In this document: positions 20,168 through 63,537 of the stretch, piece after piece | Position numbering within the stretch: the stretch's first letter is position 1 | Layout: the number at the start of each line of letters is the position of its first letter | Origin: Tetrapisispora phaffii CBS 4417 | Lineage: Eukaryota; Ascomycota; Saccharomycetes; Saccharomycetales; Saccharomycetaceae | NCBI RefSeq assembly: GCF_000236905.1 | Contig: NC_016528.1 | Location: 444,001-508,000, forward strand | Reading direction: 5' to 3' | DNA length: 64,000 bases | Notes under the pieces: model-generated | Seen by the model: the letters and a program-made list of their open reading frames with translations, nothing else | Told to the model about the DNA's origin: nothing | Databases searched by the model: none | Position numbers and translations under genes: made by a program

Positions 20168-24394
<4,227 letters not shown>

Positions 24395-34727: not shown

Positions 34728-34836
34728 CGATTTTCAGATGTTCCAGGCACTTCCTGTTTGGGTTGACGACGTAGAAGGCATGGTTTCCAGATTACTGGAT
34801 TTAGTCAGAAGGATCCTAAACGGTTGTTGAAAACTT

Positions 34837-36291: not shown

Positions 36292-37077
36292 GCTCAATGG
36301 AAAATATAGAAATTATTTTATACTAAAATTTACGGAATAAATTTATTCGAATTTTCATGTATATATATTATACATTGCTACGTATCTTTGATGAAAAATC
36401 GAAGTTTTATATAACTAGTTATAGAATTAAAATAAAGGAATTAAATTAAAGGAATTATTTTGTTTTTGTTATTTATCGCAGGAGTTTTGCATTAAGCTTA
36501 ACACATAGTTAATTTTTAAGGTCAAAATGCGAAACAAATTAAGAACATTTTTTATTAGAACCACTCAAAACATGTTATATACAAAATGTAATTAACAGTT
36601 ACAGTTTATGGTTAGTAGTTTCAATTATAGAATAAAGACTAGTGTGTCATGTTACAGATTTAAAATACTCTTCTGTACTGGCGTCACAATTTATTTTTTA
36701 TTACCCGGTGTTGTGTCAGTGAATAGGGGTCTTTGTATGCATTTCGTTTCTTTAAATTTTATTATCATTTTCTCGCGAATATTAAAAAAATTAATTCATT
36801 TTTAATAAGACAAAAGCACAAAGGAATTGTCTGACGAATCTACTAGATATCACTTTTTTCAGCATAAATTTTTGACGAAAACTTACTATATAATTCATTA
36901 AAACTATAATATGCTAATTTATGTATTATATATATAAATACAATAATTTTCAAATTCTTTCAATTCAAATTTAAAGGTCCATTGTTACTTGGTGATTCTC
37001 TTCTTTAGTTTAAGAAGATAAAGCTAAGGTAACTGAACTGTATAGAGTGGAAAAATTCAAGAAGTTAAGCTAAGACC
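36292..37077. other. Intergenic region TIR copy 1 to PAN1
   Basis: 786 bp AT-rich, TIR 3' UTR and PAN1 promoter. No repeat of the right-arm 3' flank is seen here. Nothing else recognised. Confidence 0.45.
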
Positions 37078-37136
37078 ATGTTCAATTCCTACAAACAAGG
37101 TGGAATGCAGCCACAAGGTAATAGCTACTTTAATCC

Positions 37137-37170
<34 letters not shown>

Positions 37171-40100: not shown

Positions 40101-41013
40101 GATGGAGCAAAAACTTGCAGAACTAAGATTAAGCCAACCTGGATCTAATATTCAAAACTTTGTTAAAGATCATTCAAACATGACTATATCTCAGAATGAT
40201 ACTGCATCTCCATTTAACAAATCTGAAGAAGAAAGTGATGATGAGGAAGAAAAGAGATTGCAACAAGAACTTGATAGCTTAAAAGAACAGAAAAAATATG
40301 AAAAAGAAAAGAAATTGGCTCAATTACGCCAACAATTAAAGGAAGAACGAGAATCTGAGAATGTAAATGTATCAGTTGATGAAACACCAATATCAGCTGT
40401 TTCCGTGCCAACTTATAATAGCCCTCAACCTATCCAAGATACTTTAGCGACACATCAGCAAAATATCTCTCAACAGACTGCTGAGCCAAAGAAACAGTAC
40501 TTCAAATCTGAAAAAACTGAATCTAGCCAATTTGATGCCAATGCTGCCGAAGTCCAAAGGAGATTGCAAAGAGGTTTAGATGATGATGATGACGGTTGGT
40601 CAGATGATGAAAATGCAGCTAAGGCTGCTGCTCCAGTTGTTCCAGCTCCAGTTGCCCCAACTATTCCAAATCAATTAAATGTAGAAGTTCCTGTTTCAAT
40701 TGCTCCACCTCCTCCATCAATTTCTACTGAAACAAGTGCACCAATTCCAGTTGCTCCACCAATTCCAAATCAATCAAATGTAGAAGTTCCTGTTGCAATG
40801 ATTCCACCTCCTCCATCAATTTCTACTGAAAAAAGTGCACCAATTCCAATTGCTCCACCACTTCCCCAAGTTAGTGTGTCATTACCTGATGTTATAGCGG
40901 CTCCACCACCTTTACCTAATATAAATGGTGGTGAATCAGCTATGGATTCGGATCATGATGACGTTCTCTCTATTCCAGAATCAGTAGAATCTAATGATGC
41001 CAACTTCGAGTAA
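37078..41013 (+). CDS. PAN1: Endocytic scaffold and Arp2/3 activator Pan1
   Basis: 1311 residues (1480 in S. cerevisiae). N-terminal Gln-rich region with a poly-Gln run (about 21-31), then repeats of LQPQSTG/LQSQGTG type (about 200-270 and 415-560), which match the Ark1/Prk1 phosphorylation motif LxxQxTG. EH domain 1 at about 300-385 (LARIWTLADTNKAGELLFPE) and EH domain 2 at about 585-675 (LEQIWNLCDINNSGQLNKQE). A coiled coil follows (about 760-900), then charged helices, an acidic Trp motif (DDDDDGWSDDE, about 1164-1174) for Arp2/3, and a Pro-rich end for type I myosin SH3 domains. Pan1 organises the endocytic coat with End3 and Sla1. The gene is flanked by the inverted TIR repeats. Confidence 0.96.
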
Positions 41014-41470
41014 GGTTTCTTTAATCTAAATTTTGACATCATTGTGATTTTTCACAGTTAGTAACTAAATAATATATGACTTTAGTGATATTTTGTTTAT
41101 TTTATTGAAATACATATAATTTACATTTTAAAAGTCAGTTTAGCTATTGAAGCATAATATTTGAGTTTTATTTATTATTGAATAAATATTTAATAATAAT
41201 ATAATATTACACTTTTAACCAATTTTTATATGTCCTAGAATATATAAAGAAAAATACGTATATTGTATATAATAAATTGGTTCTAGATTGAAATAAAGTC
41301 TTTTTTAGAGCAGATGCATATAAAGAAAAATTCTTTACCGATATTTATATGGAACGAAAGTCGTTGATGGTCGGACTTTTAGAATAAATATATCGAACGA
41401 ACTAAAATTTTAGTAAAGATGAAATGATTCCGAATTGGTATTAGGTAACAGGAAACATTAGAATTGGAAC
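41014..41470. terminator. Convergent 3' region PAN1 / wall protein gene
   Basis: 457 bp, strongly AT-rich, with AATAAA-like polyadenylation sequence on both strands. No other feature. Confidence 0.45.
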
Positions 41471-42259
41471 TTATAATAATAACGCGGCAATAGCAGTAAG
41501 TAAGGAACCAGCGCTGACAGCAGTCAATTTGAAACCAGCATTTTCAGCAACAAGAACACTAGCAACAGAAGTTTCAGCAGCTGCAGATGATGATGAGGTA
41601 TGAGACATTTGCAAGGTAGTTAAAGTAGTAGATATGATGTTAGTTTCGGTGACATAAGTGGTGGATTCAACAGAAGAAGAAGAGCTTGCGGAGGTAGTCT
41701 TAGCATCACAGGCATTATTAGAACAGGAAGTGATAGTGGCTAATTCCGTAGATAATTGAGTCAAAGTGGTGGTTTCATTAGAGTAACTGCTGGTAGTGGA
41801 GTTGTCGTAAGTAGAAGAAGAGTTGTAGAAACCAAAGGCTTGTAAGTCAGCGTAAGCAGAAGTAAAGGAAGTAGCTTCAGTAAAAGAAGATGATTCAATG
41901 ACGGTGGATGAGGTAACTGGTTCAACAGTAGTCGAAGAGGTGGTTGGCTCGACAGTAGTCGAAGAGGTGGTTAGTTCAACAGTAGTCGAAGAGGTAACTG
42001 GTTCAACAGTAGTCGAAGAGGTAACTGGTTCAACAGTAGTCGAAGAAGAAGAAGAAGAAGATTCGACAGAAAGAACTTCAACACTGGCAGCTACGATGGT
42101 AGTAACTGGAGTGGTGGTGGTGAAGGTGGTGGAAGTAGCATCTTTGGTGATGGTTTCATAAACGGTTATGACTGAAGTGGAAGTGGTAGTTAAGTCATCA
42201 GCTCTGGCAAAAGTAGCAGCAGATAAGGCTAAAATGGTTGATAATTTAGAGAATTGCAT
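41471..42259 (-). CDS. Ser/Thr-rich GPI cell wall protein without SRP1/TIP1 domain
   Basis: 262 residues: signal peptide (1-20, MQFSKLSTILALSAATFARA), a Thr/Val-rich head, five tandem 9-residue repeats of the type TTVEPVTSS (about 75-120), a Tyr/Ser/Asn stretch with N-glycosylation sites, one Cys-pair module (LATITSCSNNACDAK, about 168-182) and a GPI signal (GSLLTAIAALLL). It lacks the SRP1/TIP1 domain of its neighbours but shares the TSC-x4-C module with two of them. It could be compared with Sed1 or Ccw12-type wall proteins; I cannot name it. It lies between PAN1 and the right TIR pair. Confidence 0.85.
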   Translation of the reverse strand: MQFSKLSTILALSAATFARADDLTTTSTSVITVYETITKDATSTTFTTTTPVTTIVAASVEVLSVESSSSSSSTTVEPVTSSTTVEPVTSSTTVELTTSSTTVEPTTSSTTVEPVTSSTVIESSSFTEATSFTSAYADLQAFGFYNSSSTYDNSTTSSYSNETTTLTQLSTELATITSCSNNACDAKTTSASSSSSVESTTYVTETNIISTTLTTLQMSHTSSSSAAAETSVASVLVAENAGFKLTAVSAGSLLTAIAALLL

Positions 42260-43837
42260 TGTTTAGGTTGAAAATAAAAATTAAAGTTAAAGATTGAATT
42301 GGGGTGAGTAAAATTTCTAGTGAACGACTTAAAGTTTGCTTGCTTGTGGCTTTTTGGAAAAGAAAAAGGAGTGTGAATGTACTTTGATAAAAACAAGTGT
42401 TATATATGTATTATAATATAGAGTAAGAGAAAAGGTAACTATCAAAATATGATTAATATATAATATATGAAAATGATCTTTCATGAAGCTAACAACCAAT
42501 AAAGGTTTTGAAAGTTTGGAGATGTGCAATCTTTCGGATATCTATATATAATATTCCACTTTCTAGTTATTTGTTTGTTATTGCTATTGTTTGTTGTTTT
42601 CCACCTTCTTCTATGCATTGATTGATTTATCTGTATATGTGTCCAAGTTTAGTTTCGATATTCACTTAGTCGCTTCTACTTAGAAAAAATGGAACTAGTG
42701 CATATCCGTTATAGGAATTGAAAGATCTGAACAACAACGAAATGTTGATTTGTTTTTGTTATTTTTTTTTCTTTTTCTTCGACGGCTTGCAGAAGAGCGC
42801 GCACAAAACCGAATCAACAAATTTTTTCTTCCACGCAGATTTATCAATGTAGATGCCTGTAATTTTTGTCACATATCCGAATGCGGTAATATTCACACAT
42901 GCTAGAACCCTGTTGGCGTGTCGTTCTCAACGAAAAAGTTTATACTAGACCTAAAACGGAAATCAGTTTACCTCTTTGGGTTGTTTTTGTTTATTTTAAA
43001 TAAACAGATGTAGGATCTCCCAATTAGGAATCGTAAGTAGAGAATTTTATAATCAGAATGTATCTTAAAGAGGATACAAGAATTTTCAATTAGGCTTAAT
43101 TAGAATAAATCGGGATAACAAGTTCGGTTTTTAAAGTGGACTATCTGTAGTTCTACTGAATGTACAGTTCGTTTTCCGAATTCTTTTTGTTTTTTTATCT
43201 TTGAGGCATTACAGTACACTCTACTACACTACCGACACAATATATATTTATACCATGGTCTTATTATTTTTGCTTTCTACAATTACACTATTGAATGTTG
43301 GGTTATAGTTTGCACAAAGTCTTGAACAGTTAATTTTTTCTAGAAACTTCACACTGCTTTTCTGAACTCAATGTCTATCAAACTGTTAAGAATATCAGTA
43401 ATGAACTAGTACCAATATCTTACCATCTCATATTATGGTTCGAGTATAGGAACAATTAAGAGTTTCTAATATGAACAAAATGTATGACTATATATATGTA
43501 TATACGTGTGTGACCTTAAATAAGTTTTTGTCATTACAGTGGAAATGCATTAACTATTTCAAGTTTCAATGGTAATTAGAGATTTTTTTTTCATTACTGT
43601 GCAGTCATCTATTTTCAATGGTTATCTCCACTTTGACCACTATGTATCATCATCAATGTACTTAAAAGGAAGTACCCAAAATTGAATATCTGTACGATTA
43701 ATTTTATCTTAAAAAACCATATTCAGGTTTATATTGTGTTAGTCTATCAAAATTGTGTAAATAAATAAAGTTTATAAATTCAATAAAGGGTTGGGTATTA
43801 GTAATTGAGTTTGTTAGAATATTGAAGTTCTTCGAAC
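42260..43837. other. Long intergenic region between wall protein genes
   Basis: 1.58 kb upstream of the 262-residue wall protein gene and downstream of TIR copy 2. It holds AT-rich DNA with a T-rich tract at about 42762-42780 and a GC-richer patch around 42780-42960. No supported gene, tRNA or motif pair. Confidence 0.45.
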
Positions 43838-44509
43838 TTATAATAACATAGCAGCGGCGAAGGCAACAGCACCTAAACCAGCAGCGTTTCTAGTAGCACC
43901 GTTGTCAGTTTGGACGTGGATGGTGGCAGTAGTGGTAGCTTGAATTTGACCGTCAGTGATTTGCGAGACAGCAGCAACGGTAGTCTTGGCAGCAGCGGCA
44001 GATGAAGTGGTTTCGGCAGCGGCAGAGGTAGAAGTAGTTTCAGCGGCAGAAGAAGAAGATGTGGTAGCAGCGGCGACAGAAGAGGATGTGGTAACAGCGG
44101 CGACAGAAGAAGATGTGGTTTCAGCAGCGACAGAAGAGGATGTGGTGGCAGCGGCAGCGGTGCTGGAAGTGGCGGCAGCAGCAGCAACGTCATTGAAGGT
44201 TGAGACTAATGGTAATAATCTGGAAGAGTACCATGGTAAAGCGGTCATCATCGTGGAGATTTGGCTCATATCCAATTGAGCTAATAAAGTGGTGTAAGAG
44301 TCATCAGTGGCGGTTAACATTTCACCGTAAATGTCGAATAAGGCATCTGGGATGTCCATTTGACCAACTAAACCAACGTAATCATTTAAATTAGCACCGA
44401 CATCAGTTAGTAGAATTTCCATTTCTTGAATTTGTTGTTCGGTGGTTAGGGCACTGGCAGAAGCAGCAACGGCTAATAAAGCAGCGAATTTAGCGATAGA
44501 CATTTGCAT
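43838..44509 (-). CDS. TIR-type GPI cell wall mannoprotein, copy 2 of a converted pair
   Basis: 223 residues with the same layout as the gene at 35620: signal peptide, SRP1/TIP1 domain, TTSSSVAA repeats and GPI signal (GLGAVAFAAAMLL). Coding DNA from the ATG to about codon 188 appears identical to copy 1, including the synonymous sites and the repeat region. The last about 35 codons carry replacements and the 3' UTRs are unrelated, so the identity boundary lies inside the gene. Divergent from the gene at 46236. Confidence 0.92.
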   Translation of the reverse strand: MQMSIAKFAALLAVAASASALTTEQQIQEMEILLTDVGANLNDYVGLVGQMDIPDALFDIYGEMLTATDDSYTTLLAQLDMSQISTMMTALPWYSSRLLPLVSTFNDVAAAAATSSTAAAATTSSSVAAETTSSSVAAVTTSSSVAAATTSSSSAAETTSTSAAAETTSSAAAAKTTVAAVSQITDGQIQATTTATIHVQTDNGATRNAAGLGAVAFAAAMLL

Positions 44510-44680
44510 TGTAGTTGGTATTATTGGTATTATTGGTATTATTGGTATTATTTCGTACTACTGGAGTGAGACTGGTAATACCAAAATATGAGACATAAAA
44601 AAGAACAATCCTCTCAATTGTCTTAATTGTCAAATATTAACCCATTTATATATCAATTGGAATTGCTTTAAGTTGAGAAG
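43945..44680. repeat. Inverted repeat, right copy of segment A
   Basis: Inverted counterpart of about 35460-36185. It includes the TIR coding region except its end, and the proximal promoter with four ATACCAATA-type units. Confidence 0.9.
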
Positions 44681-45352
44681 AATCTCATAAATAAATACGA
44701 CATCATCCCAGAATTGAACGTGACAAGATATTCAAGAAATGTAAAGTACAACAAACAACTGAGCTAAACCAAACTCGTCAAATAAATACTTATCATGGAC
44801 ATACCACTCTGTAGGATCCATACAACCGGTTTAGGACATCCGTCTAGTATAAAACAAGTTTACACCTAAGCCGTCCCTTCTTCCGACGCGTTCGTTATAC
44901 ATACATGTCAAAATAGTCTCTAGCAAACCTGTTTTACAAATACTTACGATCCGTCGTCCCATCTTCAGGTTTAGTCTCAACATCGTGCGGAACATCGCGG
45001 ATCTCCATGATACATATCCGACGTCTGAACTTCATAAAGTGCCCAATGTTTCCCAGAAATTCTTGCGAATTGAAAATATAATTGAGATCCAGTCACAAAC
45101 AAAATAGACAGGTTCAATAACAGTACCATGGGCAGGAGTTCGTGAAAAAATTGACTACAAGGGTCTCTCACGAAACCAAGATTACATCTTAACATGTTGC
45201 TAGAAGAAAATTACGATCGGGATTTTGTACATACAGATCTGCATTACTTCTTAACGGACATGGCGTCCTATATGAGATTAGGACTTATTATGATGCAGCT
45301 ACAAGTATTTTATTCAATTAGACATGTGACGACGATACAGCACAAATGAAAA
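44681..45352. other. Non-repeated core of the right divergent TIR promoter
   Basis: Sequence between the two matching segments of the right arm. It does not align by eye with the left core and is about 60 bp longer overall. No supported gene; a 72-codon frame at 44977-45195 has no features. Confidence 0.5.
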
Positions 45353-45459
45353 GTTTTCAACAACCGTTTAGGATCCTTCTGACTGAATCCAGTAATCTGG
45401 AAACCATGCCTTCTACGTCGTCAACCCAAACAGGAAGTGCCTGGAACATCTGAAAATCG

Positions 45460-45467
45460 TCGTTCAG
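45460..45467 (+). promoter_or_regulatory. AR1-like anaerobic element, right arm
   Basis: TCGTTCAG matches the AR1 consensus TCGTTYAG of S. cerevisiae DAN/TIR genes. It is the mirror copy of 34720-34727. Confidence 0.5.
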
Positions 45468-45987
45468 ATGTAGAAAAGCGACGGACTGAAAAGGAACAAC
45501 GACCAGATCTGGGAATGCATCGGAAAATTACGGTAAGGCACGCGCGTAGACTCCTAAACGACAAACAACATGAAATGAAAATAAAGAGCAGAGATGAAGT
45601 TCCAGGTGAGAGCTAGGGCTGTAAACGATTGAGATTGAGAAGGATGATACCTAATCGAAGAGCAATGCCAGTTTACGATCGTTTTGAAGCCAAAAGCATA
45701 CCAGCTTAGGTCGGTAACTTTACTTGTTCCTCTAATCGAGGTGCGGATAGAAGATTTTGGCAACAGTTAGGTATGGAGACCTCGATGTAAGAAGTGCGAT
45801 GAACGTTAGAATAATATTTAGCTGATAATATCACTGAAAGTTGTATGTCAAATCACGAAAAGGAAACAGATTAAAATTTCTGAGTTCTGCTATTATCATA
45901 AGTGTGTTTTATCAAAGTCTAGTTTGGGTTTGGATGTCAACAATTCAGTGTTGGTATATTGGCTAATATTAAAAAATTATTGTAAAC

Positions 45988-45994
45988 TATACGA
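45988..45994 (-). promoter_or_regulatory. SRE-like TCGTATA, right arm
   Basis: TATACGA on the plus strand, the mirror copy of 34193-34199, about 240 bp upstream of the TIR gene at 46236. Upc2/Ecm22-type core. Confidence 0.45.
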
Positions 45995-46235
45995 TGTGAC
46001 AACAACGTCTTTGAATGAGTATTATTGTTATCTCTAGGTTTTGGCTTTGGTGTTGTATTAAAATCTAGATTTCCGTTGAGATAATAATTTATATATAAGT
46101 ATTACCAAATATTATTCTGAGAGTTCCGTTCTTCTTAAATACACTTATAAAGGTCTCCACTTTAAGGTTTATTAATTCGTCTTTCTGTATATTCTATTTG
46201 AAAATAACCAACACAACCAAAACATCGACTACAAA

Positions 46236-47036
46236 ATGAAGTTATCTAACATTGCCTTATTAAGTGCCGCCGCTGCCACCGCTTCCGCTTATGACCACAA
46301 ATCTGCTGCTATTGTCGAGTTAGAAGTTTACATGACTGATATCGTGAACAACATGGACCAATATCTTGCTATGCAAGCAGCTAACCCAGGTCAAGCTTTC
46401 CCAGCTGAAATTATGTCTGCCTACGTTCAAATGGCTAGAGGTAACACTATCAGTTACACTTCATTCTTTTCCACCATTGATGAAAGCGAAGTCGAGTTTT
46501 TGATGACCGGTGTATCTTGGTATTCTGCCAGATTAGCTCCATCCGTTTCTGCTGCTCTTCTTGAAGCTGGTATTGACACCAACGATGAAAATGTTGCTGC
46601 TGCCACTTCTCAAGCTGCTACTGCCTCCCAAGCTGCTGCCACTTCCCAAACTGCTGCCACTTCCCAAGCTGCTGCTGCCGCAAACACTATCAACTCTTCT
46701 AACTTAGTCATCTCTTCTAACTTATATTCTAACTACAACAGTACCGTCACAGCTAATGTTACTGATATTTCTACTACTTTAGCCACTATTACGAGCTGTG
46801 ATGATGGTAAATGTACTGAAGAAACTACCACCGTTAAGGTTACAGACAATGGCACCATTTTAGAAACTGTTACTAGTTGTGGTGAAACCGGGTGCACTGC
46901 ATCTGCTAGTATTAAAGTTCAATCCTCTGCTACTGCTAGTACTACCCCAGTTGTTGCTGAAAACCTAAATGGTTCTTCCAAGTTGAACTTCGGTATGGGT
47001 GCTATCTTAGCTGCCGCTATCCCTATGTTATTATAG
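46236..47036 (+). CDS. TIR/DAN-type GPI cell wall mannoprotein, paralog of the 438-residue gene
   Basis: 266 residues: signal peptide (1-18), SRP1/TIP1 domain (about 20-115) almost identical to that of the gene at 32635-33951, a short Ala/Thr/Gln repeat (ATSQAA units, about 127-147), a region with NxS/T sites, two Cys-pair modules (TITSCDDGKCTEE, TVTSCGETGCTAS) and a GPI signal (GMGAILAAAIPMLL). It lacks the long Ser-rich repeats of its paralog. Its promoter is the duplicated segment with AR1- and SRE-like motifs. Convergent with the next TIR gene. Confidence 0.9.
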   Translation: MKLSNIALLSAAAATASAYDHKSAAIVELEVYMTDIVNNMDQYLAMQAANPGQAFPAEIMSAYVQMARGNTISYTSFFSTIDESEVEFLMTGVSWYSARLAPSVSAALLEAGIDTNDENVAAATSQAATASQAAATSQTAATSQAAAAANTINSSNLVISSNLYSNYNSTVTANVTDISTTLATITSCDDGKCTEETTTVKVTDNGTILETVTSCGETGCTASASIKVQSSATASTTPVVAENLNGSSKLNFGMGAILAAAIPMLL

Positions 47037-47381
47037 ATAGCAATATTGTAACATTTATAGAAATTTTTAATTTATAGACAATAATAAATGCTTTATTTTA
47101 TTTAAAAACTCTATTTAAGTAGTTTCTCATATTATTTTTACGCACTACACATCATTAGATAGATGCAATTCACTTTGATTCTTATCTATCTATTCGTGAG
47201 GCTACAAGATATTATTTTAATTATATCAAACGAATAAAATAAAAATACTTTCTTTAATTATTATATATATTCTTTAAAAACGTCTTATAATACATCTAAT
47301 TGTACATTAATCTCTATATCTATATGTGGATGGGTATGTTCCTTTTAAATTTTTTTTATCACTTTAATTAAATAAAGTTGA
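47037..47381. terminator. Convergent 3' region between TIR-type genes
   Basis: 345 bp between two convergent genes, AT-rich with polyadenylation-like sequence. Nothing else seen. Confidence 0.4.
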
Positions 47382-48128
47382 TTATAATAACATAGCAGCG
47401 GCACCAGCGACCATAGCACCAACACCAGCACCTAAAGCAGCAGCGTTGTTTGCAGAAGTGCTAGTAGAGGAATGAGAAGCTGATGATAAGCTGGATGCGC
47501 TAGTAGAAGAATGAGAAGCTGATGATGAGCTGGATGCGCTAGTAGAAGAATGAGAAGCTGATGATGAGCTGGATGCGCTAGTAGAAGAATGAGAAGCTGA
47601 TGATGAGCTTGAAGAGGATGTTGAAGATGAGGCAGCTGCAGAGGAAGAAGCAGCAACAGAGGAAGAAGCTACGGTAGAGGAGGAAGCTACGGTAGAGGAG
47701 GAAGCAGTAGCAGAGGAGGAAGCAGCTGCACCAGTGGCAGCGGCATTGTGAATTGGTAAACCGTTAGAATCAGTAGAAATACCATTACTTGAGAAGTAAG
47801 AAGCTAGAACAACAGCTAATCTGGTAGTGTACCATGGTAGTTGGGTCATCACATCTTCGATGGCGCTAAAATCTAATTGAGTGAATAAACTGGTGTAAGC
47901 GTCATCATCTTTCTTGTAAGTTGTCATTTGAGTGTAGACTTCTAAAACACCGGCTGGTAAAACGAAGTTGGCATTGTTTTCAGCGTAAGAAATATAATCC
48001 ATTAAATTATTTTGAACATCATCTAAACAAGCTTGGAATTCAATAACGTCAATGCTGTCGATATCGTAAGCAGCGACGTTGGAGGCAGCAACGGCTAATA
48101 AAACAGCTAATTGTTTGAAAGATGGCAT
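47382..48128 (-). CDS. TIR-type GPI cell wall mannoprotein with 13-residue repeats
   Basis: 248 residues: signal peptide (1-20), SRP1/TIP1 domain (about 22-115, TQLPWYTTRLAVVLASYF), a Ser/Ala region, then about four tandem 13-residue repeats of ASHSSTSASSSSS type (39-bp DNA repeats at about 47454-47611) and a GPI signal (GAGVGAMVAGAAAMLL). The insertion KKDDDAY before the TSLFTQLDFS segment sets it apart from the other four. TCGTATA (SRE-like) lies at 48490-48496, about 360 bp upstream. It is the last wall-protein gene of the cluster. Confidence 0.9.
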   Translation of the reverse strand: MPSFKQLAVLLAVAASNVAAYDIDSIDVIEFQACLDDVQNNLMDYISYAENNANFVLPAGVLEVYTQMTTYKKDDDAYTSLFTQLDFSAIEDVMTQLPWYTTRLAVVLASYFSSNGISTDSNGLPIHNAAATGAAASSSATASSSTVASSSTVASSSVAASSSAAASSSTSSSSSSSASHSSTSASSSSSASHSSTSASSSSSASHSSTSASSLSSASHSSTSTSANNAAALGAGVGAMVAGAAAMLL

Positions 48129-52019: not shown

Positions 52020-55000
52020 ATGATAGATAATGAAGATCAATTCAGTGACTTCGAAGATGATGAATTTGATTCTTTATGGCAAAAAAATATTAATAAAGAA
52101 GTCACTACTGTAGTGACAAAAAGGGCGATTCCAGCACAGAGAAACTTATATGGCGAAGTTTTACCAGGTCAAAAAACCTTTTATGAAGAAGTCCAAACGT
52201 CCACTGTCTTTAAACCTACTCATCACAAGTTAAAAAGTGATCAATTAGGTTATTATGTTTATCCGACTAATTTTGAGGTCAGAGAATATCAATATAATAT
52301 TGTTAAAAAAGCACTAACAGAAAATGTATTATGTGCTATTCCTACTGGTATGGGTAAAACATTCATTGCAAGTACTGTAATGCTTAATTTCTTCCGATGG
52401 AGTGAAACAGGTAAAATTATATTTACTGCACCTACCAGGCCATTAGTAGCACAACAAATCAAGGCTTGTCTAGGTATAACTGGTATTCCATATGACCACT
52501 CCGCCATTCTTCTAGATAAATCAAGGAAAAATAGAGAGGAAATTTGGAAAGAGAAACGTGTATTTTTTACTACACCACAAGTAGTTGAAAATGATTTGAA
52601 AAGAGGTGTATTAGATCCCAGAGACATTATATGCCTGATTATCGATGAAGCTCATAGGGCAACTGGATCTTATGCATATTGTAAACTTGTTCAATTCATC
52701 GATAGATTCAATTCATCATATAGAATTCTAGCATTGACAGCCACTCCTGGTAGTGAGATCACCAACGTTCAAGAAGTAGTAAATAATTTAAATATTTCCA
52801 AGATTGAAATTAGAACAGAAGAGAGTATGGATATAGCAAAGTACATGAAAAAAAGATACAAAGAAAAAATAGAAGTTTCATTAACAACTGAAATAGAAGA
52901 TATCATTGAACAAATAGGAATAGCGATTACTCCCACATTACAACAAGCAGTTGAATTAGGAATCTATGATGATTGTCCACCATCATATATTAATGCATTT
53001 GTTGCATTACAGAAAAGTCAACAGATTATATTGAATCCAAGTTTACCCGAGGGAATCAAGTGGAGAAATTACTTCATATTACAATTGCTTAATCACGTAG
53101 GTCAAATGATGAAGAGAATAAAAATTTACGGTGTAATTACTTTTTATAAATACTTTCAAAATAAACATAAAGAATTTACTACGAAATACAGTTTAGGGAA
53201 ATCAACTAACAAGATAGCTGCCAGTTTTTATTATCATCCAATGATCAAAACTATGATGGATGCCTGTGACAAACATGTCAAAAACAGTAATTTTGTAAGT
53301 CATTTGAAGTTTCAACACATTCAAGAAGAACTGCATAATTTTTTTATAGATGGAAGATCGGATTCAAGAGTCATCATTTTTACAGAATTGAGAGATAGTG
53401 CTCTTGAGATTGTCAAATATATTGATAATCTTAATATTAAAACAATCATACCCCATATCTTTATTGGGCAAGCTAAAGGTAAAGAGGGGTTTGATGAGGT
53501 GGAATATAATAAGAAACATAAACCAAAGGGACGAAAGAAAGCTGAAAGACTAAAACAGCGAGAAGAATTTGTTGCATTAGAAGAAGAGAAAAAGAAGAAA
53601 CTTGAGAAAGAAAGTGCCGAAAGGTCTGCAAGAAGGACATTCAGTTCAGAAGAAGCCCAGCTCAAAGGGATGACCCAAAAACAACAAAAAGAAGTGATAA
53701 GTGACTTTAAAAAGGGTATTTACAATGTTCTTGTTTGTACATCAATCGGTGAAGAAGGTCTAGATATTGGTGAAGTCGACTTGATTATTTGTTTCGATAC
53801 AACTAGCAGTCCCATAAAGAACATCCAAAGAATGGGTAGAACAGGTAGAAAACGAGATGGTAAAATTGTTTTATTGTTTGCTAGCAACGAATCTAAGAAG
53901 TTTGAAAAAGCAATGGAAAGCTATTATGATCTGCAAAAACAGATAGGACAAAACTTTGTTTTATACAAAGATTCCGATAGAATTTTGCCGAAAGATATAG
54001 AACCTGAGTGTATTAAAGAATTTATTCAAGTAGGGGCTGAAAATGAAGAAATAAACAATATAAATGATTCAGATGAAGTGATTAGATACGCAACACAATG
54101 CATGAATGGAAAAAAACCAAAAAAGACTAAGTCAAGCGTTTACAAAAAAGAAAAAGCTGCATCTCAAAAGAGATTTTTTATGCCTGATAACGTTGTCACT
54201 GGAATCATATCAGCTAACTCACTTGTGAGAAAAGTGCAAGTAGTAAAAGATCCAGAGATATACATACCTTCAGAACATAAACCAAAAGAAGAGTTCACCT
54301 TACTTGATGAAATCGAAGATGAATTATTTGCGAGTCAGTCACCACAAAAGAATGACGCTTATACAAATGATGTTTTTTTAAGCGACATGCCTTTAAACTT
54401 AGTGACCTCCATTGTTTCTAAATATGATATACCAAAAATCGAGCCATCTAATTTTACAGCTTTCAAAAAGCAAACAATGACAATTAATAAATTAGAGAGT
54501 AATTCTTTAACAGATACACACGAGTTGATGACAATAGATAATGTTGAATCTAACAAAACAGAAAAAATGATAGAGAATGTTTCTCTTCTTTCAGATGACG
54601 AGGAAATCAAAAGTATTCCTAAAGATTCATTTGTCAAGGTAAATGCTTTAGAATTAGATAATAAGTCAATTGAGCGTAGTGCTTCAAAATTAAAAGACTC
54701 AAGAATGGATAGCACTTTATTCAAAAATAAATTTCGAAGTTCAGATGGTCTTCTAACAAAAATAGAAAAACTTTATTTTTCAGATAATTATTCACCAAAA
54801 TACACTGTAAGTATAGATACAATACCGAACTTAAAAATCACTACTGAACGCAACTATGTTGCTCATAATACCCATGTTCAAAAGATATTAAATATTTTTA
54901 AAAAAATGAATGAAAACGATACACAAACCCAAATCGATATCAACAGATCCAAATGTATCGCAAGAGGTATTATGGGAGGAAATATCAATTTAATCGATGA

Positions 55001-55136
55001 AACCGATTGTAATTCATCTATAATCTCAAATTCAGATATAAGTTTCAATATGAGAACCAGTGATGATTCAACTAAATTGTCAAGCACACAAAATGAAAAG
55101 TTAAATGAATTGCTTGATTCAGATTCAGACTTTTAA
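52020..55136 (+). CDS. MPH1: DNA helicase Mph1 (FANCM family)
   Basis: 1038 residues (993 in S. cerevisiae). SF2 helicase: NFEVREYQYNIVKKAL (Q-like region, about 84-99), Walker A IPTGMGKTF (about 107-115), FTAPTRPLVAQQ, DEAH box in IIDEAHRATGSY (about 207-218), ALTATPGS, an inserted helical domain (about 290-500), and the C-terminal helicase domain with SIGEEGLDIGEVDL and motif VI QRMGRTGRKR (about 602-611). The last 350 residues are disordered and Ser/Asp-rich. Mph1 unwinds D-loops and remodels stalled forks, limiting crossovers. S. cerevisiae MPH1 (YIR002C) lies next to AIM21 and near CEN9, consistent with the rest of this window. Confidence 0.96.
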   Translation: MIDNEDQFSDFEDDEFDSLWQKNINKEVTTVVTKRAIPAQRNLYGEVLPGQKTFYEEVQTSTVFKPTHHKLKSDQLGYYVYPTNFEVREYQYNIVKKALTENVLCAIPTGMGKTFIASTVMLNFFRWSETGKIIFTAPTRPLVAQQIKACLGITGIPYDHSAILLDKSRKNREEIWKEKRVFFTTPQVVENDLKRGVLDPRDIICLIIDEAHRATGSYAYCKLVQFIDRFNSSYRILALTATPGSEITNVQEVVNNLNISKIEIRTEESMDIAKYMKKRYKEKIEVSLTTEIEDIIEQIGIAITPTLQQAVELGIYDDCPPSYINAFVALQKSQQIILNPSLPEGIKWRNYFILQLLNHVGQMMKRIKIYGVITFYKYFQNKHKEFTTKYSLGKSTNKIAASFYYHPMIKTMMDACDKHVKNSNFVSHLKFQHIQEELHNFFIDGRSDSRVIIFTELRDSALEIVKYIDNLNIKTIIPHIFIGQAKGKEGFDEVEYNKKHKPKGRKKAERLKQREEFVALEEEKKKKLEKESAERSARRTFSSEEAQLKGMTQKQQKEVISDFKKGIYNVLVCTSIGEEGLDIGEVDLIICFDTTSSPIKNIQRMGRTGRKRDGKIVLLFASNESKKFEKAMESYYDLQKQIGQNFVLYKDSDRILPKDIEPECIKEFIQVGAENEEINNINDSDEVIRYATQCMNGKKPKKTKSSVYKKEKAASQKRFFMPDNVVTGIISANSLVRKVQVVKDPEIYIPSEHKPKEEFTLLDEIEDELFASQSPQKNDAYTNDVFLSDMPLNLVTSIVSKYDIPKIEPSNFTAFKKQTMTINKLESNSLTDTHELMTIDNVESNKTEKMIENVSLLSDDEEIKSIPKDSFVKVNALELDNKSIERSASKLKDSRMDSTLFKNKFRSSDGLLTKIEKLYFSDNYSPKYTVSIDTIPNLKITTERNYVAHNTHVQKILNIFKKMNENDTQTQIDINRSKCIARGIMGGNINLIDETDCNSSIISNSDISFNMRTSDDSTKLSSTQNEKLNELLDSDSDF

Positions 55137-56289: not shown

Positions 56290-57795
56290 CTATGAAAAAT
56301 CGAGTTCTCTTGTTCCCACATGAATTATATCATTATTTCTAATCCCATAATCACTAAGTTGGACAAATTCTCTATGCAAATTTTCCATACTCCCTAAGTC
56401 TGATATTAAATATAACTCTGTTTCCAAGACATTCAATTTGTGTTTCGAACATATAACACTTTTTAAATAACGAATAGAACAATTTGCTAAAGTTGTTACA
56501 CGAGTGTCAAAGTGAGAGGAATTTTCAAAAGTTAGTCTAAGTTCCATAATCTGATCAGATAACCAAGAGATGCTGTCACTTTTTTCTCTTTTAGAGCAAT
56601 TGTACAGTTTTACTAGCGTTTTGTACCTTTGCAAATTTTCATTAATTAATATTTCGCCAGAAGAAACTTTAGAAATGAAGAACAACTCTGCCTCTTTTCT
56701 TGTCAACAAATCAAAGTCAGAACCATCCAAGGCTGTTAAATTATCAAACCTAGCTATTAGTTGGTAAAAATCTTGAAAATTTTCTGGATTAGCTTTGAAT
56801 ATTGGATTCCTTTGAATATTTAAGGAAGTTAAGTTATTAAATTTCACGTTTATCATATCAATCAAATCCCATTCAATCAATCCATTATCGGATATATTTA
56901 AATGAAATACGGAAGGTAATAACGTATCATTAAATGACTTAATCAGATTATTCGAAATGTTTAATATTTTAATGTTCGTTTTGCACAAACTGAGTGGTAT
57001 GTCGGTCAACAAACAACCAGATAAATGTAGTTCTTCTAACGACTGAGGAAATATCACATTGTTGAGTTTGAACTCATTTAATGGATTGTTACTAATATCT
57101 AATTTAATTAGATTGGGAAAACTTCGGAAAATATTAGTTAAGTTTTCTGATTTAATTTCGCAATTTTGCATGGTTACATGTTTGACCTTATTCAGAGTGA
57201 TATTGGAAATATTTTCCCATCCCTTATTTAATTTATTTCCTGATATATTGATAGAATCTAAATTTTTCAGCCTATGTAATAGTTTAATTGTAAAACTGAT
57301 GTCTGTTATTAGGTTAAAAGATATGTCCAACGATATAATGCTACTGCAGTGATATTCTATAATTTGCAGATCCTTTTCTGTCAATGTTTGATCACTTATT
57401 TGGAGTTTTCTTAATGATACAAATTGGAGTTTACTGAATAATTTATTTTTTTCTGTCAAGCTTTCAAACCCATAACCAATTACAGTCTTAGAACCAAATT
57501 TTAGTTCCCCAATATCATTCAAATCATCACCATATTTTACTCTCAATGCTTGGTCAAAGGTTCGAGGTGGTTGATGTTCTCTAAGCAACTTTGTTCCCCT
57601 CATAAATGAAGCAGACCCTGGGATTCGTACCGAAAAATATTCGATACCATCAATAGTACCAGAATGTTTACCACGAGAAGTATTATCCCACTCCAGCCCA
57701 TATGTCTCTTCACCTGGCCAGTTTTTTATTTCACCAATATATTTTATTGTACAAAGCTCATTATTTATGCTTAATCGTTCGCCAACTTTAAACAT
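56290..57795 (-). CDS. PAC2: Tubulin cofactor E homolog Pac2
   Basis: 501 residues (518 in S. cerevisiae). N-terminal CAP-Gly domain (about 1-75: GLEWDNTSRGKHSGTIDGIE, the GKHSG being the usual GKHDG loop with one change), a leucine-rich repeat region (about 130-350 with LKNLDSINISGNKL, LIKLDISNNPL and LEELHLSGCLL) and a C-terminal ubiquitin-like domain (about 415-501, ending IIHVGTRELDFS). Pac2 binds alpha-tubulin during folding and heterodimer assembly. It is convergent with TMA20 (76 bp), as YER007W and YER007C-A are in S. cerevisiae, and NUG1 follows. Confidence 0.93.
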   Translation of the reverse strand: MFKVGERLSINNELCTIKYIGEIKNWPGEETYGLEWDNTSRGKHSGTIDGIEYFSVRIPGSASFMRGTKLLREHQPPRTFDQALRVKYGDDLNDIGELKFGSKTVIGYGFESLTEKNKLFSKLQFVSLRKLQISDQTLTEKDLQIIEYHCSSIISLDISFNLITDISFTIKLLHRLKNLDSINISGNKLNKGWENISNITLNKVKHVTMQNCEIKSENLTNIFRSFPNLIKLDISNNPLNEFKLNNVIFPQSLEELHLSGCLLTDIPLSLCKTNIKILNISNNLIKSFNDTLLPSVFHLNISDNGLIEWDLIDMINVKFNNLTSLNIQRNPIFKANPENFQDFYQLIARFDNLTALDGSDFDLLTRKEAELFFISKVSSGEILINENLQRYKTLVKLYNCSKREKSDSISWLSDQIMELRLTFENSSHFDTRVTTLANCSIRYLKSVICSKHKLNVLETELYLISDLGSMENLHREFVQLSDYGIRNNDIIHVGTRELDFS

Positions 57796-58095: not shown

Positions 58096-59652
58096 TTATT
58101 CCATTAATGAATCTTCATTTTCTTTTGATGAAGATATAGCGTTATCAAGAGATGCAAACAATCCATCCAAATCAAATTCTTTCGACCAATCAGATACAAT
58201 AGTAGTTTGTTCAGATTTGGCTGGTTCTTGGGTAGCACCAGAACTTATAGTAGAGATTGTACCAGTAGCCATAGAGTCTTTAGAGGCTTTTGGAAGAACC
58301 CATCCATAAAACTTACCATCTCTCCAGTCACTCAGTACAGATATACCTGCACTTTCTAAGTTTGGTATGCCACCTTTACTTAATCTACCTCTCATACGAG
58401 CAACATGAATCAAAAAATGCTTGGTAAAGGTATCTGGATCATTTGAAGGAAGTGCTGGCAGTTCGTAGAATTTCTTGAAACTGTCAGTCATTTCATCTGA
58501 CTTTGATAGTCTCTTTATTAGCATCAAAACAGCTGGATATGGATCTATGATATGCTTAGCTGGAATAGCATTCAATAGAGCTAATTCAGCCTCTTGTTCT
58601 TTTCTAGTTTTCCTCTTATTGTCCGTTGGGAAGCAAATACCTGGAGAATCTAAAATCTTTAGCTTGTTGTCAACTTTAACTTCTCTCAAAGCAGTAGTGA
58701 CACCTGCTTGATCACCAACTGGACATGCTTTGGAAGAACCACCACGACGAGAAGTTAATGCATTAATAACAGATGATTTACCAACATTTGGATAACCAAT
58801 AACACCAACCACAATAGATCTCTTCAAATTACTGTTGTTAGAATATTTCTTTAATGCTTCCATTAAAGCAGATGCTGTGGCTGTTTGTGTGAGCTTTTTA
58901 TTAAAAGAGGTTGCATTAGTAGCACCAGAAGCTGCTCTCAAAGGAATAGTTGGGAAACTAGACTTCAAGACATTTAGCCACTGTTCTAATACATGAGGAG
59001 GAATCAAATCAACTTTATTTAAAATCAAAATCAATCTTTTACCTTGACTTTGTAAAACGGCTTGTTCAACTCTTCTAGATCTAGTTCCTTCTGGATCTCT
59101 AGCGTCCAAAACATAAAGAATAACATCAGATGCATCCACAACTGTTTTAAATATCTTATCATAAGCCTTTCTTGACTTCTCCAATTCAGTATTACCTTCA
59201 TCATTGTCATTATAAAAATCAATGTTATAATCAACAACGTCCAACTCTTCTTCAGGTTCGTCGAAATTACTGTGTCCATCATACTTAGATGCTGCTTCTT
59301 GAGCAGATGCAACCAAAGCTGCCAACCCATTCTGACCGTCATCCTCCTCCATACCATCTTCCATAATCGTTTCACCTTGCTCCAGTGCCAATTTCTTAGC
59401 TTCTAACCTCTGTTGTTTAGCAAGTTCTTTTTCTTCTAAATCCTTCATCTTCTTAGCTTCAATCTCTTCAATAATTTTGTTTTTGTAAGGGAAGTTAGCT
59501 GGAATACCAGGATCCTTTTTTCCTCTGGACTTCCAAGTCACATCCTTTTTAGCTAACTTTCTTTCTTTTCTATTTTGAGCAGCTGCCTTCTTCTTGATAC
59601 CCTCTTTCATACGGGTAGAAGTTCTCTTGGATTGCTTCTTTCTGACTCTCAT
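58096..59652 (-). CDS. NUG1: Nucleolar GTPase Nug1 (60S biogenesis)
   Basis: 518 residues (520 in S. cerevisiae). Basic N-terminus (MRVRKKQSKRTSTRMKEGIK), a Lys/Glu coiled-coil part (about 55-95), then a circularly permuted GTPase of the YlqF/YawG type: the G4 motif LNKVDLIPP (about 210-218) comes before G1 GYPNVGKSSV (about 284-293), and G3 is LDSPGICFP (about 330-338). A C-terminal domain (about 350-460) with RLSKGGIPNLESAG binds pre-60S RNA. Nug1 acts in nucleolar and nucleoplasmic 60S maturation and export, with the helicase Dbp10. Synteny with PAC2 (YER006W and YER007W) is conserved. Confidence 0.96.
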   Translation of the reverse strand: MRVRKKQSKRTSTRMKEGIKKKAAAQNRKERKLAKKDVTWKSRGKKDPGIPANFPYKNKIIEEIEAKKMKDLEEKELAKQQRLEAKKLALEQGETIMEDGMEEDDGQNGLAALVASAQEAASKYDGHSNFDEPEEELDVVDYNIDFYNDNDEGNTELEKSRKAYDKIFKTVVDASDVILYVLDARDPEGTRSRRVEQAVLQSQGKRLILILNKVDLIPPHVLEQWLNVLKSSFPTIPLRAASGATNATSFNKKLTQTATASALMEALKKYSNNSNLKRSIVVGVIGYPNVGKSSVINALTSRRGGSSKACPVGDQAGVTTALREVKVDNKLKILDSPGICFPTDNKRKTRKEQEAELALLNAIPAKHIIDPYPAVLMLIKRLSKSDEMTDSFKKFYELPALPSNDPDTFTKHFLIHVARMRGRLSKGGIPNLESAGISVLSDWRDGKFYGWVLPKASKDSMATGTISTISSGATQEPAKSEQTTIVSDWSKEFDLDGLFASLDNAISSSKENEDSLME

Positions 59653-60103: not shown

Positions 60104-60721
60104 TTATATTATATCACTTATTGTTATAGGCAATCCTAAATATCTTCTTTTAAATTGTTCTTTTATTTTATTCTTTATTCCAATTGGCAGTGTAACAATC
60201 TTAAAACCTTCACCAGCTTTTTTTAATGTCTTAAAAACGAAGGAATATGAAGGAATGATGGTTTTATCAGGAATGGTCACTTGTTCATCGATTACTACGC
60301 AGTTCCCGATCTTGCTGCCACGGCCTAATGTAACATTATTATATATTAGTACATAAGACCCGATTTCAATGCAATTGATTAGAGAGCTTTTACCTATATA
60401 AATATAGGATTGGAATTTCATAGGTGAACATAATGGGACCCTCTTTTTAGTTACATTATTTGCTATAAGTTCATAGCCAATAATCGGAGGTGTGATTATA
60501 CAACCTCTGTCCAAATAACACATGTATCCAAACGATATTGTATATATGAGTCTATTTCCTTGGCTTCGATTATATGATGGTTTTAGTTTTACATCAGATT
60601 CAATTAATACAGATTCATTTATCACACAAAATCCATGGAAATGTACCTTGTCTAATGACTTGATTAACGAAAGTTTGGATATTAAATTAAACTCCTCAAT
60701 TTCTACCAGTTGATGTTCCAT
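60104..60721 (-). CDS. Dynactin p25-like left-handed beta-helix protein
   Basis: 205 residues. The middle is built of hexapeptide-type turns: GKSSLINCIEIGSYVLIYNN (about 112-131) and LGRGSKIGNCVVIDEQVTIP (about 134-153), then TIIPSYSFVFKTL. This run, with the preceding VPLCSPMKFQSYIYIG, resembles the C-terminal half of dynactin subunit 5 (p25), where [20 protein letters not shown] and [20 protein letters not shown] occupy the same places. p25 sits at the pointed end of dynactin and helps bind dynein cargo adaptors. I know no p25 gene in S. cerevisiae. Other hexapeptide-repeat proteins, such as acetyltransferases, are the alternative; no catalytic His motif is seen. It sits between NUG1 and NOP16 on the same strand. 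Confidence 0.65.
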   Translation of the reverse strand: MEHQLVEIEEFNLISKLSLIKSLDKVHFHGFCVINESVLIESDVKLKPSYNRSQGNRLIYTISFGYMCYLDRGCIITPPIIGYELIANNVTKKRVPLCSPMKFQSYIYIGKSSLINCIEIGSYVLIYNNVTLGRGSKIGNCVVIDEQVTIPDKTIIPSYSFVFKTLKKAGEGFKIVTLPIGIKNKIKEQFKRRYLGLPITISDII

Positions 60722-61076: not shown

Positions 61077-61781
61077 TTACTTTATATTATGTACCTTCTT
61101 CCACTTTTCGATTCTTCTTCTCAAATCACCTTGACTTTGTTGATAGATATTTAGTTTGGTATCATAGAACATTTTCCTATAATCATCTCCATGCTTGTTA
61201 TACAATCTTTCAAGCCATTCTTCCTCTCTTGAACTTTGTAGTCTTTCTCTAACATTTTCAGGTCTATTAGCGTACTCTTCTAATAGCTTAACAACTTCTG
61301 TCTTCTCAGGCTCTGATTTTTCTAATCTAACTTTTAATTGTGCAACATTTTCATCTTCATCAAACTTTTTCATTTTCCCGTAGACAATCTTCAGAATATT
61401 ACCATCTTCATCACGCTGAATTCTGGCTTCACCTTCCAGAATTTTGTTCTCATCGTAATAACCATCACTATTTAATTCATCTTGGTCATTTTCATCCTCT
61501 TCTTCCTCCTCCTCCTCATCATCATCTTTAAAGTAATTTGATTGTAATGGCTGCTTCTTTATGATCTTGGTAAAATCTGCTTCATTACCACCAGCTGGTG
61601 TTTGTAATTTAGCTCTCAAACCCAACTTCTTATAGTTTTGGGCTAAAGTAAGAGAATAATCCCAATTTTCTGCTATAATAGCGTTCGATCTAATATTAAT
61701 TTGTTTCTTCTTATCTTTAGTTCTTCTTGTAGCCTTCCCAATGGAAGATCTATTCATCTTTCTCTTTCTAACAGATGTCAT
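61077..61781 (-). CDS. NOP16: 60S biogenesis factor Nop16
   Basis: 234 residues (231 in S. cerevisiae). The N-terminus is basic ([20 protein letters not shown]) with [20 protein letters not shown] (about 33-52) and [13 protein letters not shown], the most conserved Nop16 block. An acidic run (about 82-96) is followed by a C-terminal helical region ([20 protein letters not shown], about 174-193). Nop16 is a constituent of early 66S pre-ribosomes. In S. cerevisiae NOP16 (YER002W) is the second gene right of CEN5, which makes the region just upstream here the expected centromere position. Confidence 0.93.
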
Positions 61782-62868
61782 GTTTAATATTATTGTAGCC
61801 CTTTTGTGTATCTCTTATCTACGTTGGAAATGGTATTATGCAATTGAACTGATTAGTATAATGTGTTAAAATATACATAGTTATTTATAAGTAGCTATGA
61901 TATTTTCAAGTCATCAATGTCATCGCTAAAATTTTTCTTGAAATTTTCAAGCTCTGTCACAAGAAGAAGCGAATATTGTAAATGTCGAAAAATCAAATTA
62001 TGATGGAATAGTATTATTAACCAGAATGGTAATGCTACATACCTTGAAATATGTAACAAAAAGAATTATACAAAGTTATATTTTGTAATAGAAAACAGAA
62101 ATAAAATCAGCATATAGATCGTATACTTGACAAGGGCTCTTATAATTATAAAAAAACATAGATATGGATAGTGCACCTACTACAATTATATTCTGACCAA
62201 TATAAAACCTCTCAACATAAATTATATATTCGGATAAGATAATTATTGTGAACATCAAAAATATGAAATACAATTTATATTTAATTTATAAATGTATATT
62301 ACATAAACTTAATTGAAAATTGAAAATTTAAAAAATATTTTTAAAAGATAAAAGAAAAAATAAATTAAATTATATATTGTCACGTTATCAGTGAACATAT
62401 AATATTGGTTGAAAGTTTATATGTTATTATGCTATCTTTGTTATTTATTATATATTAGTTGCAATTATTGTAGGTCGAGACTAGAAGCAAGTTTGCTTGA
62501 AATTTCCTATCTATTCAGTTTCTTTCAACTTTATCTTCAGTTACTGATTTTGTACATCATTAATCATTCTATACATTCTCTCTTATTATCATATATCTTT
62601 TGAATATATGTGGCAGAGAAGCAGGTTATTTTATTATGACCATTTTTGCCGAAATTTCAAGTTTCTACAGCTCTACATGAGATTTCATGAAGTCGGGTGA
62701 GCAACGGTATGCGTGTCCAGATGTCTGAAATCCAGTTTTCAATAAATTTCAAATAATTAAGCATACCTTTCTTATTCCTATATAAAAATAAATCTCTTTC
62801 TAAATACACTATCAAGCAATTGAGCTGCATAGCAAAAGAAAGCAATATCAAAAAGCCCACCAATTAAT
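61782..62868. other. NOP16-IRC22 intergenic region (expected centromere interval)
   Basis: 1.09 kb between two divergent genes whose S. cerevisiae orthologs flank CEN5. It contains the candidate centromere (62219-62388) inside the most AT-rich part. Frames at 62076-62273, 62409-62603 and 62657-62863 have no features. Confidence 0.6.
62219..62388 (-). other. Candidate point centromere (CDEI-CDEII-CDEIII)
   Basis: Read on the minus strand: ATAACGTG at 62388-62381 matches CDEI (RTCACRTG) in 7 of 8 bases. Next, 135 bp (62380-62246) with 14 G/C, which is 90% A+T, as CDEII. Then TAATTATCTTATCCGAAT (from 62245) keeps the essential CCGAA of CDEIII (TGTTTnTGnTTTCCGAAA), followed by an AT tail. The CDEII is longer than the about 80-90 bp of S. 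cerevisiae. The position between NOP16 and IRC22 equals that of S. cerevisiae CEN5 (YEL001C/YER001W), and the next gene looks like YIL001W, next to CEN9. Confidence 0.55.
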
Positions 62869-63537
62869 ATGCAATTCTTTTTCTTACTTTGGTTAGCAAT
62901 CATTAATAATATTTTTGTTCGTGCTGAAACTGCCAACTCCACTGATTTCGACAATGAAATCAGCGATGATGTGAGTTCTAATGGTCGTGAGTTCATTAAC
63001 TTGAATGTTACTTACACTATTTTGGAAAAACCAAATGCTAATTTCACTGAACTATTAGAATTTGCTCCTGAACAAGGTTTAACGTTGAAATACAATTTAT
63101 ACAATGGTGAGGATTCTTCTGTCAATATTGTTGGTGTTTCTGGTAATGTTTACACTTATCCAGATGGTTATTTTGCGGCCAATATTACTGAATCTGCCGT
63201 TGACACCATTGTGGTTGCTTTTAATGAAACTACTACCTTCCAACAAGGTGTTAGATTGGCATTAGAAGAAGGTAGATACTTTGTTGAACCAATAGTCATC
63301 GTCGAGAAAGATGAACAGGTCTTGAGAGTTGCAGTCCAGCCTGTTATGGTCGAAATTGTTCCACTTCCATTGTCCTTCTTTAACCTAGAATTTTTATCAA
63401 TCCTAGTTGCTTTGTTTGCTATTATTGCTGGTACATATTACTTTTTTATTGGCAAATCTACTAAAGTATCTAAATCTAAGAATGCTAAGCCAATCAAAGT
63501 TGACGAGAGTTGGTTACCAGATAACTACAAAAACTAA
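62869..63537 (+). CDS. IRC22: ER membrane protein Irc22 (TRAP-alpha-like)
   Basis: 222 residues (225 in S. cerevisiae). Signal peptide (1-18, MQFFFLLWLAIINNIFVR), a lumenal domain with beta-strand pattern and several NxS/T sites (INLNVTYTILEKPNANFTEL; VVGVSGNVYTYPDG-like IVGVSGNVYTYPDGYFAANI), one membrane segment (about 168-191) and a basic cytosolic tail ending SWLPDNYKN. This layout matches Irc22 and the alpha subunit of the translocon-associated protein complex. In S. cerevisiae IRC22 is YEL001C, the gene immediately left of CEN5. Confidence 0.93.
   Translation: MQFFFLLWLAIINNIFVRAETANSTDFDNEISDDVSSNGREFINLNVTYTILEKPNANFTELLEFAPEQGLTLKYNLYNGEDSSVNIVGVSGNVYTYPDGYFAANITESAVDTIVVAFNETTTFQQGVRLALEEGRYFVEPIVIVEKDEQVLRVAVQPVMVEIVPLPLSFFNLEFLSILVALFAIIAGTYYFFIGKSTKVSKSKNAKPIKVDESWLPDNYKN

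Follow-up and report, generated by a model that had tools for sequence, protein, structure and literature searches.

From sequence we infer, with very little room for doubt, that an element at positions 62214-62388 of the window is, in binding and function, the point centromere of the C9 chromosome of Tetrapisispora phaffii, a post-genome-duplication budding yeast. The window is the whole 64-kb stretch of DNA that was analyzed (C9:444001-508000), and it comes from a genome of 12,115,070 bp in 17 contigs, 16 of them large. We base the identification, which supports the proposal of an earlier note on this DNA as far as sequence can, on the three-part anatomy of the element, its fit to the consensus of the genome's own centromere-like elements, its uniqueness in the window, and its conserved location. 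The result is a base-level placement of the centromere of this chromosome and a CDEIII consensus derived from the genome itself. The element itself is ordinary in kind and lies in the expected place; the part worth following is the departures of CDEI and the inverted CDEIII cores described below. On several chromosomes CDEI appears relaxed or even absent, whereas CDEIII remains strict, and inverted CDEIII cores gather at the CDEI end of some elements; these side results matter more than the placement.

Read on the minus strand from 62388 to 62214 (C9:506214-506388), the sequence forms a complete point centromere-like element made up of a CDEI-like E-box, CDEII, and CDEIII (Table 1). The E-box, when read as AACGTGAC, also agrees with CAYGTGAY at seven of eight positions. 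The CDEIII contains TATCCGAATATATAATTTATGTT, with TTATCCGAAT at 62236-62227 and CCGAA at 62233-62229, and its conserved 3' end (TNTGTT) reaches 62214, which is 5 bp past the start given in the earlier note; the 7/8 CDEI, the 135-bp segment of about 90% A+T, and the CDEIII-like sequence keeping CCGAA that the note had described were all found. Short motifs taken singly are ordinary in the window: with up to one mismatch, RTCACRTG occurs 100 times (143.8 expected by chance) and TTTCCGAA 68 times (66.8 expected). An A+T content of at least 89.6% is reached by 14 of the 63,866 windows of 135 bp scanned across the 64 kb, all of them inside 62234-62388. TCCGAA preceded at 120-164 bp by an E-box with no more than one mismatch is found at two places in the window; at the second (CCGAA at 30873, minus strand) the DNA between the motifs is 54% A+T, and only the element at 62214-62388 combines the motifs with high A+T.

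Table 1. Parts of the centromere-like element and neighboring genes, in window coordinates
Feature	Position	Strand	Basis
CDEI-like E-box, ATAACGTG	62381..62388	-	7/8 to RTCACRTG
CDEII, 135 bp, 89.6% A+T	62246..62380	-	base composition
CDEIII, core TATCCGAA, native 3' extension ending TATGTT	62214..62245	-	score and conserved positions
NOP16 (as YER002W), CDEIII side	61077..61781	-	PF09420, E 2.1e-69
205-aa hexapeptide-repeat protein, between NUG1 and NOP16	60104..60721	-	sub-cut-off dynactin subunit 5 match
NUG1-like GTPase (as YER006W), synteny marker	58096..59652	-	PF08701, PF01926
CAP-Gly/LRR gene, PAC2-like (as YER007W), synteny marker	56290..57795	-	PF01302, PF12799
MPH1-like DEAD/DEAH helicase (as YIR002C), CEN9-side synteny marker	52020..55136	+	PF00270, PF00271
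IRC22-like TRAP-alpha gene (as YEL001C), CDEI side	62869..63537	+	PF03896, E 5.5e-57

Moving outward from the CDEIII side, the genes are NOP16, the hexapeptide-repeat gene (29.9 bits against dynactin subunit 5, with a cut-off of 40), and the NUG1-like, PAC2-like, and MPH1-like genes; outward from the CDEI side they are the TRAP-alpha gene (IRC22), an ankyrin-BTB gene (as YIL001W), and OST48/WBP1 (as YEL002C). The names IRC22, NUG1, and PAC2 are our own reading of the protein families, and MPH1 follows the earlier note. A search with the IRC22-like protein gave two matches among 267 candidates, namely the protein itself and a relative at 55% identity. We take YEL001C, YEL002C, YER002W, YER006W, and YER007W to be the surroundings of CEN5 in S. 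cerevisiae, and YIL001W and YIR002C to be those of CEN9. Because the flanking genes match this order on both counts, we regard the site as the ancestral CEN5/CEN9 site. The earlier note had argued for an ancestral position from the NOP16 and IRC22 flanks and the presence of CEN5 and CEN9 genes in the window; that argument holds, with NOP16 on one side and IRC22, ankyrin-BTB, and WBP1 on the other, and is extended by the ankyrin-BTB and OST48 genes. The element also resembles CEN5 and CEN9 in lying between the IRC22 and NOP16 sides with CDEI on the IRC22 side, in the order CDEI-CDEII-CDEIII, and in the CCGAA core.

A survey of the genome found one centromere-like element on each of 15 of the 16 large contigs. 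Matches of pattern searches were judged by eye for A+T content from their first 80 bases, and five were fetched in full. CACRTG followed 130-160 bp on by TCCGAA gave 25 matches, against 63 for the reversed pattern; in six of the 25, each on a different contig (C1, C2, C3, C12, C13, and C16), the whole spacer was A+T-rich. With WCCGAA in place of TCCGAA, CACRTG-type searches yielded 43 matches at spacers of 135-165 (control 60) and 56 at spacers of 102-132 (control 65), and neither added an element. The AACRTG search (29 matches, control 19) recovered the window's own element, and the CATRTG search (47 matches, control 24) recovered those on C8, C5, and C7 and added C6 and C14. Two further AACRTG matches that looked A+T-rich, and one match from each WCCGAA search, were among those fetched in full and were rejected. 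In three of the five main searches the raw counts did not exceed the controls, so the patterns are no proof unless A+T content and synteny are added. We also searched with trehalase, dynamin, and citrate synthase (3, 6, and 2 matches), which we take to be centromere neighbors in S. cerevisiae; these neighborhoods led to the elements on C8, C5, and C7, and there is a trehalase gene at 1 kb from the element on C1 and a citrate synthase gene at 1.5 kb from that on C16 and another at 11 kb from that on C2. A native CDEIII pattern, TCCGAANNNANNNNNTNTGTT, designed from 12 elements with that of the window included, matched the genome 102 times with at most one mismatch (control 79). Among the matches listed for the 12.1-Mb genome nine were exact, eight of them in centromere-like elements: five already known (C3, C7, C8, C9, C12) and three new (C10, C11, C15), the ninth being a noncentromeric match on C8. 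The new elements, including those at C10:84020 and C15:39002, have 86%-89% A+T upstream of CDEIII.

The genes beside 11 of the surveyed elements are of kinds that lie near S. cerevisiae centromeres: trehalase and UTP20 (C1); a septin gene, CDC10-like (C2); an APS kinase gene, MET14-like (C3); an N6-adenine-methylase-family gene, EFM5-like (C6); RRP6 and a PHO80-like cyclin (C10); the TFIIIC 138-kDa subunit gene (TFC3) and an ERG26-like 3-beta-HSD gene (C11); phosphomannose isomerase (PMI40-like) and SacI-domain (INP51-like) genes (C12); a HlyIII-family gene, IZH2-like (C13); a HAT1-like gene (C14); DOM34 and a Ribosomal_L32p gene (C15); and an EAP30 gene, SNF8-like (C16). RRP6, DOM34, and the TFIIIC subunit were named from solved structures, and the DOM34-like protein beside the C15 element aligns to yeast DOM34 with 500 bits over 380 residues; the other names are our reading of families. 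Because PMI40-like (YER003C) and INP51-like (YIL002C) genes adjoin the C12 element, C12 is the likely duplicate partner of the C9 centromere region. The N6-adenine-methylase-family gene by the C6 element is read as two frame-matched pieces (local positions 585-1130 and 1134-1424, plus strand) with one stop codon between them.

Several further candidates were set aside, mostly for their composition. On C4, no element was found by any pattern search, by the trehalase/dynamin/citrate synthase neighbor search, or by the native CDEIII pattern; two candidates from the CDEIII pattern there had 66% and 70% A+T, and one with CACGTG had 78% A+T and a CDEIII score of -15.0. Also rejected were C8:191132 (exact native CDEIII pattern and a CDEIII score of 22.7, with CDEI scores of at most 0.7 and 71% A+T), C8:747216 close to the end of its contig (83% A+T, CDEIII 3.5), C1:293377 (58% A+T), and C1:454340 (75% A+T). 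On C9 itself, a second CDEIII-like match at C9:302333 (score 13.5) follows DNA of 72% A+T in which CDEI scores do not exceed 4.0, and among the matches of the five pattern searches, judged on their first 80 bases, there was no second A+T-rich CDEI-CDEIII arrangement.

Quantitative evidence comes from a scoring model built from 11 elements on other contigs, all found without use of the 3' extension, with the window element left out. The leave-one-out total for the window element is 59.2, the sum of CDEIII (21.3), CDEI (9.4), and an A+T term (28.5). The second-best match in the window (42.1) is on the opposite strand and shares A+T-rich DNA with the element, and the best score elsewhere in the 64 kb is 8.6; shuffling gave maxima of 14.4 (40 dinucleotide-shuffled windows) and 27.9 (intergene shuffled 2000 times). 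On CDEIII alone, 21.3 compares with a maximum of 18.5 in the 40 shuffles. Leave-one-out scores range from 6.8 to 13.6 for CDEI (12 elements scored) and from 10.6 to 27.0 for true CDEIIIs. The consensus of the 11 elements has A at +8 (in nine), T at +14 (nine), T at +16 (nine), G at +17 (eight), T at +18 (nine), and T at +19 (ten), and all six are present in the window CDEIII; the invariance of TCCGAA is by construction, because the searches demanded it. A consensus from the same genome's other centromeres was the check that the earlier note had proposed, and the window element passes it: no different native consensus absent from the window emerged. The note's remark that CDEIII matches only in part stands relative to S. 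cerevisiae and falls relative to the native consensus, which the 3' part of the window CDEIII follows at every conserved position.

A similar distinction applies to CDEII. At 135 bp it is longer than the roughly 85 bp of S. cerevisiae (PMC12925627), as the earlier note had observed, but within its own genome the length is normal. Spacing from E-box to CCGAA falls into two classes, 145-149 bp (mean 147.3) in seven elements (C1, C2, C3, C5, C7, C9, C11) and 134-138 bp (mean 136.3) in six (C6, C8, C12, C13, C14, C16), with no spacing between the classes and C10 and C15 outside the count; the corresponding CDEII lengths are 133-137 and 122-126 bp. The two classes are about 11 bp apart, which is close to one helical turn. 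Mixed CDEII lengths and 10-bp jumps are reported for Vanderwaltozyma and Jamesozyma genomes, and S. cerevisiae is reported to tolerate 10 bp of extra CDEII and not 5 bp (Helsen et al. 2025, PMC12925627). Reported A+T contents of CDEII span 76%-98% (PMC3141009), a range that includes the 89.6% of the window element. We consider the length normal because the long class has seven members and the two-class pattern is published for other yeasts; the window spacing of 147 bp is the same as that of C5 and C11.

The true rule-breaker in the window element is CDEI. Across the genome, CDEI is CACRTG or CATRTG in 11 of the 15 elements (CATGTG being CACATG on the opposite strand). The window CDEI is AACGTG, with the GTGAC half-site intact and an A replacing the outer C in its partner; that of C11, likewise spaced at 147, is CACGGG; and on C10 and C15 no CDEI scores higher than 2.7 anywhere between 115 and 184, with C15 having a CATATG at 249. 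In a compilation of 102 centromeres, four CDEI sites (C3, A4, T7, and G8) are reported as invariant (Gordon et al. 2011, PMC3141009); we rely on these four sites only, because the motif as printed there, NNCAVBTG, would exclude CACATG. By this measure the window CDEI, although in register and 7/8 to RTCACRTG, has A in place of the invariant C at site C3, a difference from S. cerevisiae as well, and the C11 element is broken at site T7. In S. cerevisiae, cells with a disrupted CDEI are reported to be viable with chromosome loss, and CDEIII is essential (PMC10381965). Since C10, C11, and C15 also depart and CDEI is not essential in S. cerevisiae, we do not treat the departure as barring the window element from the set; any single CDEI departure may be a sequencing error.

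By analogy with S. cerevisiae (PMC10381965, PMC6077249), CBF3 would recognize the CCG of CDEIII, bend the DNA, and recruit a single Cse4 nucleosome to the A+T-rich CDEII; Cbf1, as a dimer on CDEI, would seat one of two CCAN copies, and the kinetochore would then hold a microtubule. At the window element we expect CBF3 and Cse4 to act normally and the Cbf1 step to be weakened. With one E-box half broken, binding of Cbf1 is probably poorer here than on most chromosomes of the genome; a weaker site should be tolerated, because CDEI is not essential in S. cerevisiae. We consider it unlikely that this weakening has gone as far as a working centromere on CDEIII and CDEII only, in which ATAACGTG is no longer a Cbf1 site, as may hold for C10 and C15. 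The low CDEI scores of those two elements, against 6.8-13.6 in the 12 scored elements, and the lack in the window element of an otherwise invariant C (PMC3141009) would fit such a loss, but ATAACGTGAC sits in exact register (147, as in C5 and C11), retains one half-site unbroken, and has a score (9.4) inside the span of the 12 scored elements.

Two other readings would deny the element its function. It is very improbable that it is a nonfunctional relic of the ancestral centromere, with the active one elsewhere on C9. A damaged CDEI at the ancestral location could be read in that way, but both CDEIII and CDEII are undamaged and correctly spaced, CDEIII matches the conserved positions, and the pattern matches judged on C9 included no rival element; moreover, A+T-rich CDEII evolves fast, so that a relic should have drifted (PMC3155921). 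That the likeness arose by chance in an A+T-rich intergene is extremely improbable, and we reject it on the shuffles and on the joint pattern of motifs and A+T: single motifs are indeed as frequent as expected, but none of 2000 intergene shuffles and none of 40 window shuffles came near 59.2, and synteny is independent evidence.

Around the functional centromeres that we propose, a pattern noticed post hoc concerns the outer side of CDEI. A reversed CDEIII core (TTCGGA followed by A or T and then A) lies outside the CDEI end in four of 15 elements, at -165 (C5), -183 (C10), -155 (C12), and -172 (C14) from CCGAA; the window element has none there. The interval from -210 to -130, 1200 bp in total, contains four such cores, and 34,125 bp of further flank contain none in the same orientation; 3000 random draws placed one in at most one of 15 elements. 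With the looser TTCGGA/TCCGAA in either orientation, the observed count is again four of 15, and the draws reached three of 15 in 3 of 3000. The -183 position is occupied in C15 too, by the near match TTCGGG, and in both C10 and C15, the two elements with no recognizable CDEI, the cores are 178 bp apart. Scored with a model of all 15 elements, the inverted sites of C5, C10, and C14 reach 17.4-18.7, that of C15 12.7, and that of C12 7.1, for comparison with the leave-one-out range of the true CDEIIIs.

One possible explanation, which we put forward tentatively and do not favor, is that the genome is in a centromere transition, with CDEI eroding and a second, inverted CDEIII having arisen at the CDEI end on some chromosomes. 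The window element and C11 (CACGGG) would then be early stages, and C10 and C15 show no recognizable CDEI and an inverted CDEIII-like core where it would lie. If so, centromeres bracketed by CBF3 sites could turn round and dispense with Cbf1, which would fit the elements beside the trehalase genes. Both trehalase genes (C1 and C8, plus strand) have an element downstream, at C1:1010367 and C8:142721, and the gene is faced by the CDEI end on C1 and by the CDEIII end on C8 (spacings 148 and 136). The polarities are opposite, and therefore the element was turned round, or was replaced, in one of the two. Elements poor in CDEI and with inverted cores would offer a natural test of the extent to which an inner kinetochore can dispense with Cbf1 and of the way in which a point centromere could turn round.

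Among known systems, the closest in one respect are Vanderwaltozyma and Jamesozyma, whose genomes mix two classes of CDEII length that differ by one helical turn; their classes are about 75/85 and 50/60 bp, whereas those here are 122-126 and 133-137 bp, and loss of CDEI on some chromosomes, seen here, is not described in the excerpted account of those genomes (PMC12925627). The unconventional point centromeres of Naumovozyma are likewise short and sequence-defined, in a related post-duplication yeast, but are reported to be without conventional CDEI and CDEIII, whereas the CDEIII of the window element is conventional (PMC5499181, PMC3141009, PMC12925627). We found no paper on T. phaffii centromeres among openly licensed PubMed Central papers, and the atlas of Helsen et al. 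(PMC12925627) may already include the window element.

Elsewhere in the window, positions 31414-48128 hold a cluster of Ser/Ala/Thr-rich ORFs that look like secreted cell-wall proteins. Two 223-aa ORFs, at 35620-36291 (plus strand) and 43838-44509 (minus strand), are nearly identical and in opposite orientation, and a 1408-aa ORF with a long poly-threonine tract occupies 20168-24394 on the minus strand.
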